A stretch of DNA of 12,603 nucleotides from a bacterium (GTDB lineage: Bacteria > UBP4 > UBA4092 > JAOAEQ01), in contig JAOAEQ010000039.1 of the NCBI GenBank assembly GCA_026416715.1, positions 1 to 12,603 of the forward strand. The letters are read 5' to 3'. Position 1 is the stretch's first letter. Every line of letters begins with the position of its first letter. A program made the translations under genes and the position numbers. The notes beneath the pieces are model-generated. The model worked only from the letters and a program-made list of their open reading frames with translations, was not told where the DNA came from and searched no databases. This document shows positions 2,160 to 10,267 of the stretch, piece after piece.

Positions 2160-2169
2160 GGTTTGGTCT

Positions 2170-2239
2170 AGCGGATGCAGACGGATTGTTGCGGGTGTAA
2201 TCGAATATTGTCATCCGCTGGGTGTCCGACTGCATCCGT
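2170..2239 (+). repeat. GC-rich segment with two competing inverted repeats after hsp20
   Basis: AGCGGATG (2170-2177) can pair perfectly with CATCCGCT (2212-2219). The overlapping CGGATGCAGACGGA (2172-2185) can pair instead with TCCGACTGCATCCG (2225-2238), 13 of 14 with one A-A mismatch, plus a G-U pair at 2171/2239. The two folds exclude each other. The segment is much richer in G+C than the flanking spacer. Only a loose T-rich stretch (TTTTATGTTGTT, from 2244) follows, so it would be a poor intrinsic terminator for hsp20. It could also be a dispersed palindromic (REP-like) repeat unit. Confidence 0.6.
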
Positions 2240-2266
2240 AATGTTTTATGTTGTTCTGGCTTAATT

Positions 2267-8505: not shown

Positions 8506-9687
8506 TTGACGATTACATTGCATTTATCTACGCTTACTTCACAATTTAAAGTTCAGTTCGGTAGTCTTGATAACCTAATTTGTATTCGTTCACCAGGTCG
8601 GGTTAATCTGATTGGGGAACATACAGATTATAATGACGGGTTCGTCCTCCCGATAGCTATCGATCGTGCTATATATATCCTCGCTCAACCACGGTCAGAT
8701 AATAAGGTTAACCTTTATTCAATGAATTACCTTGAATCAGCAGAATTTACGCTTGAAACAATTTCGCCAACCTCACCGGCGTCGTGGGTGAATTATCCGA
8801 AAGGAGTTTTATCGCTGTTATTCGCGCGCAGGCTGGTTAATCACGGGTTCAACGCGTTGATTTATGGCGATATTCCGGTTGGTGCTGGATTAAGTTCATC
8901 CGCTGCGCTTGAACTAGCGATAGCATATACTGTTCAGGAGTTATCAGGTTGCACTTTAGCTCCACTCGATATGATCAAATTATGTCAGCAAGCAGAAAAT
9001 GAATTTGTCGGGGTGCAGTGTGGGATTATGGATCAGTTTATTATTCGACTCGCGAAAGAACATACTGCATTATTTATTGATTGCAGGACATTGCACTATG
9101 AATATATTCCCATCCCAAATAATAACATCAGGGTGGTGATTTGTGATAGTGGAGTTAAACGCGGATTGATTAATTCGGAATATAATCTGCGTCAGGAGCA
9201 GTGTAAACAAGGAGTATCGTTATTGAAATCATATTTTCCGAACATACTCGCATTACGCGATGTTTGCTGGACAGATTTTATCAACGTTCAAAATAATCTA
9301 CCGGAATTGGTTCGTAAAAGAGCGCGACATGTTATTTCTGAAAACCAACGAGTTCTAGATGCAGTTAAGGTATTACAGGAAAATAATATCCCCGCGTTTG
9401 GTCAGCTGATGAACGAATCGCATAAAAGTTTAAAACACGATTATGAGGTTAGCTGCCCGGAACTCGATATACTGGTTTCGTTAGCGCAACAGTTTGACGG
9501 ATGTTTCGGGTCAAGAATGACTGGAGCAGGATTTGGCGGATGCACGGTAAGTATCGTTCATTCAGAAGTGGTTGAGCGGTTTATCGACTATATTCAAGCT
9601 GAATATCAAAAAGCAACGAAAATTAAACCGGAAATCTATCTAACTTCCGCAAGTTCAGGCGTTTCCCGACTGTTTCTTGAAATTTAA
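8506..9687 (+). CDS. galK: Galactokinase
   Basis: GHMP-family kinase that phosphorylates galactose to galactose-1-phosphate, the substrate of GalT just upstream. It has 393 residues, the usual size. Seen: the galactokinase signature SPGRVNLIGEHTDYNDG (29-45, catalytic Arg32), the ATP-binding loop PVGAGLSSSAALELA (124-138), CGIMDQF with the predicted catalytic base Asp176, and GSRMTGAGFGGC (335-346). The start is unusual: an in-frame TGA lies at 8500-8502 and there is no in-frame ATG before the signature, so translation must begin at a non-ATG codon. TTG at 8506 is the best choice, with a weak GGA about 9 bases before it; TTG at 8518 is the alternative. The catalytic residues are all present, so the gene looks functional. 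Confidence 0.96.
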   Translation: MTITLHLSTLTSQFKVQFGSLDNLICIRSPGRVNLIGEHTDYNDGFVLPIAIDRAIYILAQPRSDNKVNLYSMNYLESAEFTLETISPTSPASWVNYPKGVLSLLFARRLVNHGFNALIYGDIPVGAGLSSSAALELAIAYTVQELSGCTLAPLDMIKLCQQAENEFVGVQCGIMDQFIIRLAKEHTALFIDCRTLHYEYIPIPNNNIRVVICDSGVKRGLINSEYNLRQEQCKQGVSLLKSYFPNILALRDVCWTDFINVQNNLPELVRKRARHVISENQRVLDAVKVLQENNIPAFGQLMNESHKSLKHDYEVSCPELDILVSLAQQFDGCFGSRMTGAGFGGCTVSIVHSEVVERFIDYIQAEYQKATKIKPEIYLTSASSGVSRLFLEI

Positions 9688-9750
9688 TCGGTTTATAGAA
9701 GGTTGATTATATTGAAGATAAACTAAATACGGAAAAAAGTGATAATTCAT

Positions 9751-9780
9751 TTGACAAATGAGTAATTAGTATAGTATAAT
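9751..9780 (+). promoter_or_regulatory. Consensus sigma70-type promoter for the csp leader
   Basis: TTGACA (9751-9756) and TATAAT (9775-9780), both perfect, are separated by 18 bases. The predicted start is near 9787, giving a leader of about 130 bases before the csp start codon. Confidence 0.85.
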
Positions 9781-9801
9781 ATTTATGGTTCAAAACAGGG
9801 T

Positions 9802-9890
9802 AAAAGCAGATTCAAACGGGTAGAAAACATATTAAGTTTCATCAGTTTGTATCAGCTATTCTAACTGTTTGAATCTGCTTTTTTTATTTT
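9802..9890 (+). terminator. Intrinsic terminator inside the csp leader: candidate attenuator or small-RNA terminator
   Basis: AAAAGCAGATTCAAAC (9802-9817) and GTTTGAATCTGCTTTT (9867-9882) are perfectly complementary over 16 bases; a G-U and a G-C pair extend this to 18. After one mismatch, TAGAA (9821-9825) pairs with TTCTA (9859-9863). A run of seven T follows (9879-9885), then ATTTT. It lies downstream of a consensus promoter and ends about 10-15 bases before the csp ribosome site. GATTCAAAC (9809-9817) can alternatively pair with GTTTGTATC (9845-9853), 8 of 9, which would break the terminator stem. Premature termination would release an RNA of about 100 bases. Confidence 0.85.
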
Positions 9891-9919
9891 CAAATAGAAA
9901 GGAGGGGATATTTTTTAGT

Positions 9920-10129
9920 ATGGCAGATCGCGTTAAGGGTAAAGTGAAATGGTTCAATGACCGTAAAGGTTTTGGGTTCATTTCGCAGGATAACGGAGAT
10001 GATGTTTTTGTGCATTACTCCGCCATAAGTATGGACGGATTCAAAAGTATCGCAGAAGGCGATGCGGTTGAATTCGAAGTGGTCAAAGGACCGAAAGGTT
10101 TATCCGCCGCTAATGTAAAAAAAATCTAG
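9920..10129 (+). CDS. csp: Cold-shock protein, CspA family
   Basis: Small single-stranded nucleic-acid binding protein with one OB-fold cold-shock domain; members act as RNA chaperones in the cytoplasm. It has 69 residues, the standard length. RNP1 is KGFGFI (16-21) and RNP2 is VFVHY (29-33), with the usual VKWFND lead-in and the end LSAANVKKI. The ATG at 9920 matches the family N-terminus; the frame is open further upstream, but that region is leader RNA. The Shine-Dalgarno AAAGGAGGGG (9898-9907) is strong but about 12-14 bases from the ATG, longer than usual. The gene has its own consensus promoter and a leader containing a terminator, so expression probably depends on read-through or refolding. 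Another terminator ends the transcript. Whether it is cold-induced cannot be told from sequence. Confidence 0.97.
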
Positions 10130-10199
10130 CTTCGCTTTCAGCAAGGTAGTTGTTGTAAAACAGCGGATATAGCAAGCAGTATAAGTTTTGTTTCAGGTT

Positions 10200-10267
10200 A
10201 GCCCTTTTGTAGTAACAAGTAAAGTAGTATCTACACTCCTTTCTCGTAACACCAGAAGGGCTTTTTT
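10200..10267 (+). terminator. Intrinsic terminator after csp
   Basis: AGCCCTTTTG (10200-10209) pairs with CAGAAGGGCT (10253-10262), 10 base pairs including one G-U, followed by a run of six T. The loop is long (43 bases) and contains a small GTAG/CTAC hairpin. It leaves a 3' untranslated stretch of about 130 bases after the csp stop. On the - strand no U-tract follows the stem, so it probably does not serve the convergent glycosyltransferase gene. Confidence 0.75.

Follow-up and report, generated by a model that had tools for sequence, protein, structure and literature searches.

A probable transcription attenuator with a repeat-derived stem in the leader of a bacterial cold-shock protein gene

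The leader of the cold-shock protein gene (csp) described here carries a promoter and an intrinsic terminator, in that order, ahead of the csp ribosome site, and this order recurs at csp genes beyond what is expected by chance. The gene lies in a stretch of bacterial DNA of 12,603 nucleotides, referred to below as the window. From the sequence, we consider the csp leader to be a transcription attenuator, which is the probable reading, where termination within the leader and regulated read-through would together determine expression. The csp paralogue in the genome of the window (G000) has this arrangement too, as do csp genes of a second genome from the phylum (G001) and, above background, csp genes in other phyla, which suggests that csp is controlled at the level of transcription in these organisms.

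The promoter is of the sigma70 type and matches all 12 of the hexamer bases (TTGACA at 9751-9756 and TATAAT at 9775-9780 of the forward strand, 9751-9780 overall), with a spacer of 18 where the optimum is 17. Only 0.0185 matches of this quality are expected per shuffled window, and the perfect promoter named in the original prediction, which was made from the letters of the window, was thus recovered. It sits between the end of the galactokinase gene at 9687 and csp, a forward-strand open reading frame of 69 aa (9920-10129, ATG at 9920) whose relatives are at most 77% identical. Transcription is predicted to start at 9787, the first G, 7 bases past the -10 hexamer, based on promoter spacing. 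The Shine-Dalgarno (SD) sequence of csp, AGGAGG, is found at 9900-9905, and the helix-score scan revealed, at 10200-10262 on the forward strand, a large-loop hairpin (AGCCCTT..AAGGGCT followed by T6) that is probably the 3′ terminator of csp. A scan for promoters gave no match of at least 9/12 starting between the leader terminator and csp; by sequence, therefore, transcription of the csp mRNA must cross the terminator. Inspection of 9787-9900 by eye showed no start codon with a ribosome site that could belong to a leader peptide.

The terminator was located by folding and helix finding. Its left arm (AAAAGCAGATTCAAACGG, 9802-9819) and right arm (CTGTTTGAATCTGCTTTT, 9865-9882), both on the forward strand, form a stem of 18 pairs, one of them G.U, which leads into a T tract of seven (9879-9885). 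Because four of these T pair with AAAA of the left arm, the structure can also be described as a core stem of 14 pairs followed by the T tract. The minimum free energy of 9787-9890 is -27.2 kcal/mol (z -4.6), a value equalled by none of 200 shuffles. The hairpin ranks first among the terminator-like hairpins of the window, with a helix score of -28.4, and shuffled windows gave none at or below -20; a stock terminator scan omitted it because that program limits the loop to 8 bases. A stable hairpin with a T tract directly 3′, as expected of an intrinsic terminator, is therefore present at 9802-9885, between the promoter and the start codon, as expected of an attenuator, and the 18-base-pair stem with seven T that had been proposed before the csp ribosome site is borne out. 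Once complete, the terminator is the preferred fold at every temperature computed. Melting of the terminator by temperature was considered and rejected, since the hairpin is computed to be stable from 4 to 55 °C. It should be noted that all folding was thermodynamic, leaving out proteins and polymerase, and that promoters were scored by consensus only. Rfam gave no match at the gathering threshold, either in the window or at 20 further loci, and what a permissive Rfam search returned was limited to chance matches of hairpin shape, for example to microRNA precursors.

In the proposed mechanism, polymerase would start near 9787 and make a leader of about 100 bases, which would fold into the intrinsic terminator directly 5′ of the csp ribosome site. 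The frequency of read-through would then determine how much csp mRNA is made, so that a strong promoter would be combined with the early ending of many transcripts. The arrangement resembles the trp, pyr, T-box, and transcriptional riboswitch attenuators, in which a promoter, a leader, and an intrinsic terminator precede the gene, and the window leader has a computed fold, exclusive of the terminator, that could correspond to their antiterminators. However, no ligand or leader peptide is known for the window leader, it belongs to no Rfam class, and its alternative fold is not common to the paralogue.

A long hairpin in this position could also act on the mRNA and not on polymerase, for example as a 5′ stabiliser, as an RNase III target, or as part of a translational thermosensor. 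Leader hairpins acting at the mRNA level occur in the csp mRNAs of E. coli and S. aureus. Long csp leader hairpins of this kind are established in Listeria, where the cspA thermosensor acts on translation (PMC8079631). The window leader has in common with the systems of the cspA thermoregulator family RF01766 (E. coli, Listeria) that it is structured and has alternative folds. However, those systems act on translation and mRNA stability, whereas in the window the SD sequence lies outside the hairpin and RF01766 gave no gathering match, with none listed up to an E value of 10 in 9700-10250. An RF01766-type leader would make the SD sequence more accessible in the cold; the thermodynamic model gives an accessibility of 0.50 at 37 °C and 0.19 at 10 °C, the opposite of a cold-induced translational switch. 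In addition, seven T directly 3′ of the stem are needed by none of the mRNA-level roles, and T-runs recur behind unrelated stems. We consider it quite unlikely that the hairpin acts in this manner. Weak matches to RF01766, below threshold, were seen at some other loci and presumably reflect coding sequence, which we believe to be part of the 428-position model.

If the hairpin is an attenuator, terminators should be found at the csp genes of relatives. The phylum sample consists of two genomes, G000 and G001, with five csp genes between them: the window gene and its paralogue L032 (contig C27) in G000, and L043, L044, and L045 in G001. All five have a terminator hairpin with a T-run before the start codon, and their stems are unrelated; at control gene starts of both genomes, such a hairpin is found within 100 bases in 12% (n=255). 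In the paralogue, the promoter TTGACA-17-TATATT is followed by the hairpin AAAACCATCTT..AAGATGGTTTTTT and then the ribosome site. The hairpins of L043, L044, and L045 lie 70-82 bases 5′ of the start. An upstream promoter with at least 9/12 matches is present in three of the five (12, 11, and 10), including TTGACA-17-TAGGAT at L043, and it is weaker or ambiguous at L044 (TTGCAT-17-TATATT, 8/12) and L045 (TTGACA with an unclear -10). That two of five phylum promoters are weak by consensus counts against attenuation. No orthologue of the window hairpin itself was found: searching the DNA of 60 relatives turned up nothing outside G000 beyond short matches of chance-like quality, and with a phylum sample of two genomes it has no partner for covariation testing.

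Support for the layout was also found in other lineages. In a survey of csp genes from 34 genomes, a leader terminator was present in 26 of 74 csp leaders and in 54 of 546 control genes (P 9e-8), counts which are inflated by paralogues that are not independent. A promoter together with a leader terminator was found at 15 of the 74 csp genes and at 9 of the 546 controls (P 2e-9), and the difference persisted when only controls with at least 150 bases upstream were used (6/232, P 3e-6). The terminator score behind these numbers is a home-made helix score that was tuned while viewing the phylum leaders, and the start codons of csp and control genes were picked heuristically. The 15 leaders with both elements come from eight of the 34 genomes, with the layout in 4/4 csp leaders of G025 and 4/5 of G059, and 48 of the 74 csp genes have no leader terminator; the trait is thus lineage-specific. 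Hairpins with T-runs were seen in csp leaders of three Brocadiales-type Planctomycetota, whose leaders are near-identical, of about eight Gemmatimonadota, and of single Nitrospirota, Nitrospinota, and Ignavibacteria. They are absent from most of the Geobacteraceae, Nitrospira, and Acidobacteria csp genes examined. Since the Geobacteraceae, which have the nearest csp proteins by sequence, mostly lack the terminator, the trait does not track protein similarity. In the leader terminator stem shared by G059 and G002, changes on both sides were found in 4 of 11 pairs, a number reached by 1 of 500 shuffles. These compensatory changes are direct evidence of selection on a predicted csp leader terminator, in a lineage other than that of the window. 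Together with the five of five phylum genes and the enrichment, they indicate that the terminator is conserved at csp in relatives.

Several elements with their own features emerged from the survey. The G002 and G059 csp leaders L202, L235, L239, L242, and L191 have a common CATCGAC upstream of the covarying terminator GRGCGATGAT..TTCGATCATCGCYC. The CATCG within it mimics the right arm of the terminator and could pair with the left arm. This shared element had no Rfam match at gathering and is a candidate for a new leader RNA family. In the G025 leaders L185, L231, and L237, an early GGCTCTTRTAA (GCTCTT in L237) mimics the terminator right arm GCTCTTGYGGG and is a possible antiterminator. Five Gemmatimonadota loci (L070, L078, L079, L081, and L093) carry a near-identical hairpin, AGAGACCTGGTTCGTCCAGGTCTCT, with a T-run about 104-109 bases 5′ of csp.

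The recurrence of the layout also bears on a further explanation, namely that the promoter, structured body, and terminator form a complete RNA gene from 9787 to about 9886. The product, about 100 bases long, would be a small RNA in its own right, with csp expressed by read-through or from another start, which is compatible with attenuation and cannot be separated from it by sequence alone. However, it is csp genes in particular that have this layout ahead of them, and the RNA bodies involved are unrelated, which argues for a role in cis. The scan gave no promoter match between the terminator and csp, and the leader matched no Rfam family. An independent RNA is, in our estimate, improbable, and attenuation of csp remains the preferred reading.

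The window stem is derived from a dispersed repeat. When up to two mismatches are allowed, G000 contains 221 copies of the unit TATCCGTTTGNATC compared with 56 of the reversed control. The units are often arranged in inverted groups whose two right arms are separated by 20-22 bases, and alignment of these groups defines a dispersed element with four arms, L0-L1-R0-R1. A covariance model built without the window copy (R2) identified the csp leader as a copy (9787-9875, forward strand, 34.8 bits, E 4.3e-6 in 43 kb), along with a second copy in the window just downstream of hsp20 (2169-2241, forward strand, matched by the model at 2174-2236 with 28.3 bits) and nine further places. The hsp20-side copy is terminator-like, with a large loop and a helix score of -21.7. 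The first covariance model had given 42 matches over both strands, 33 of them at E < 0.01, corresponding to about 20 distinct places in G000 that include sites outside csp leaders. In control stretches totalling 350 kb, taken from the two phylum genomes, model R2 gave 0 matches, and the sister genome G001 is without the unit (6 matches compared with 4 in the control). Other copies in G000 are located at L002 1470-1547, L034 1501-1571, L035 1443-1514, and L144 1050-1117. The element is similar to REP/MITE-like repeats in being short, inverted, present in about 20 copies, and situated in short intergenic gaps. It differs from them in its four arms of TATCCGTTTGNATC and was matched to no named family.

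The arms of the repeat show no covariation, with a score of 0.105 compared with 0.121 in shuffles. A conserved RNA structure for the family was consequently rejected, and the absence of covariation implies that the family is maintained, or is decaying, as a DNA sequence. The spacing of the arms, 10 or 20-22 bases, corresponds to about one or two helical turns, which hints at a site for a DNA-binding protein. One copy, at L040 1501-1560 (contig C31 of G000), combines a fully paired outer stem (GATTCAAACGGAT..ATCCGTTTGAATC) with TTGTTTTTT immediately 5′ of an ATG and may possibly be another terminator ahead of a gene.

That the stem belongs to a repeat family is evidence against attenuation, as it could be present for other reasons. 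A mobile or expanding intergenic repeat may have landed here by chance, with no regulatory role on csp, and several copies of the family do occupy short gaps between same-strand genes. However, the terminator arms extend beyond the family. The csp copy has an addition of its own, AAAAGCA (9802-9808) pairing with TGCTTTT (9876-9882) plus the T tract, which turns the pairing of L1 with R1 into a terminator, and its 18-pair stem compares with imperfect stems in the other copies. Furthermore, terminators occupy the corresponding position at the paralogue and at the csp genes of G001, all of which lack the repeat. An accidental insertion is unlikely in our view, and we continue to favor an attenuator, in which the repeat copy would be the source of the stem.

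The repeat also endows the leader with a second way to fold. The original prediction stated that the left arm can pair either with the right arm or with an earlier near-duplicate of it, and this is confirmed: L1 (GATTCAAAC, 9809-9817) is able to pair with R1 (GTTTGAATC, 9867-9875) or, with one U.U mismatch, with the core of R0 (GTTTGTATC, 9845-9853). R0, which largely repeats the terminator right arm, spans 9843-9856 on the forward strand by folding and repeat alignment. Cotranscriptional folding revealed a second left arm that had been overlooked, L0 (GGTTCAAAACAG, 9787-9798, forward strand), which begins with the base predicted to be transcribed first, mimics the terminator left arm, and can pair with R1. 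With L0:R1, the alternative becomes a complete competing fold (L0:R1 plus L1:R0). In foldings of the growing transcript, L1:R0 has a probability of 0.86-0.89, accompanied by L0:R1, through base 9876, where the alternative is favored by 5.9 kcal/mol at 37 °C and 10.6 kcal/mol at 10 °C. It stays more stable than the terminator until about 9878, and the terminator overtakes it after 9878-9880. Direct paths from the alternative to the terminator have computed barriers of about 20 kcal/mol at 37 °C and 27-30 kcal/mol at 10 °C, values from findpath that are upper bounds. Removal of the 5′ bases that hold L0 weakens the computed alternative. When the terminator arms were fixed and the remainder was shuffled, 1.1% of sequences folded as well and 0.2% also suppressed the terminator, so the competing fold goes beyond what an accidental nine-letter match would give. 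In the window leader, the left arm is more strongly sequestered than in shuffled leaders (p 0.005, the lowest value that this test can return).

These results are compatible with a dedicated refolding switch, in which the repeat-derived fold would serve as an antiterminator and temperature or transcription speed would decide the outcome. The stable alternative that begins at the predicted first transcript base, the barriers, and the rarity of the two properties among shuffles that retain the terminator arms all agree with it. However, the four-arm layout is a dispersed repeat that also occurs outside csp leaders and lacks covariation, and a near-duplicate arm that is a trait of the repeat family is, by itself, no evidence for a dedicated antiterminator. 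No competing fold was found for the terminator of paralogue L032, which is without the repeat. A general antiterminator in csp leaders was a candidate that we rejected, because over 21 csp leaders the early sequestration of the left arm reached a combined p of 0.09. A second measure over the same leaders, the probability that the terminator pairs late, gave a combined p of 6e-4 that was driven by the window, L043, and L237. The antiterminator or kinetic switch suggested in the original prediction thus stands as far as a stable competing fold in the window is concerned, but not as a feature of the paralogue or of csp leaders in general. Its further suggestion of a cold switch found no support in folding at low and normal temperature. 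In the calculations, the alternative forms alike at 4-45 °C and gives way to the terminator once this is complete, whatever the temperature; none of these results singles out the cold. A refolding switch in the window leader is possible, though we lean against it. Within the attenuation model, the repeat fold (L0:R1 plus L1:R0) would compete with the terminator (L1:R1 plus AAAAGCA/TGCTTTT). The repeat fold forms first by calculation and could allow polymerase to pass; if Csp or a changed transcription speed opened it, termination would return.

Premature termination in csp leaders has a precedent. Delaleau et al. (2024, Mol Cell 84:3482; cited in PMC12562117) reportedly described Rho-dependent transcriptional switches in the E. 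coli cold-shock response. The 5′ UTRs of E. coli cspB and cspG undergo Rho-dependent premature termination that responds to cold (PMC7815308), and the earlier view that known csp control in E. coli does without leader termination is thus out of date. The window resembles these leaders in that termination would occur between the promoter and the ribosome site. However, the E. coli leaders need Rho and show a temperature response, whereas the window has an intrinsic terminator, a hairpin with a T tract, predicted from its sequence. The open-access literature searched, which leaves subscription papers mostly outside, contained no description of a csp leader with an intrinsic terminator; as evidence of novelty this is weak. 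In their Rho-dependent form, cold switches that act on transcription in csp leaders are already published.

Csp is known for melting RNA structure and for influencing termination. E. coli CspA, CspC, and CspE antiterminate at metY-rpsO and CspD attenuates termination at SgrS (PMC9765468, PMC11648934), and B. subtilis CspB and CspD alter read-through at intrinsic terminators (PMC8307031). The parallel with the window is that Csp proteins act on intrinsic terminators; none of the reports cited concerns an intrinsic terminator in a csp leader, and a link to Csp in the window would be by analogy. Since Csp proteins have this activity, feedback of Csp on termination at its own leader seems to us the most likely general mechanism across lineages, a view held with modest confidence. 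It is favored because the terminator recurs among csp leaders and the refolding alternative does not. More speculative is the joint claim that attenuation of csp by intrinsic terminators is recurrent and evolved independently in several phyla, that Csp sets its own read-through, and that the version in the window was assembled from a dispersed repeat with the repeat's own fold as antiterminator; taken as a whole, we offer it only tentatively.

Accounts of csp regulation have so far centered on mRNA stability and translation; the Rho-dependent transcription switch in E. coli is a recent addition. If the recurring csp leader terminators hold in other phyla, control of csp at the level of transcription would be widespread and would have been reached by different means. 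The action of Csp proteins on terminators makes a simple feedback, in which Csp sets termination at its own leader, directly testable. The window would provide a concrete case of a dispersed repeat converted into a regulatory leader.
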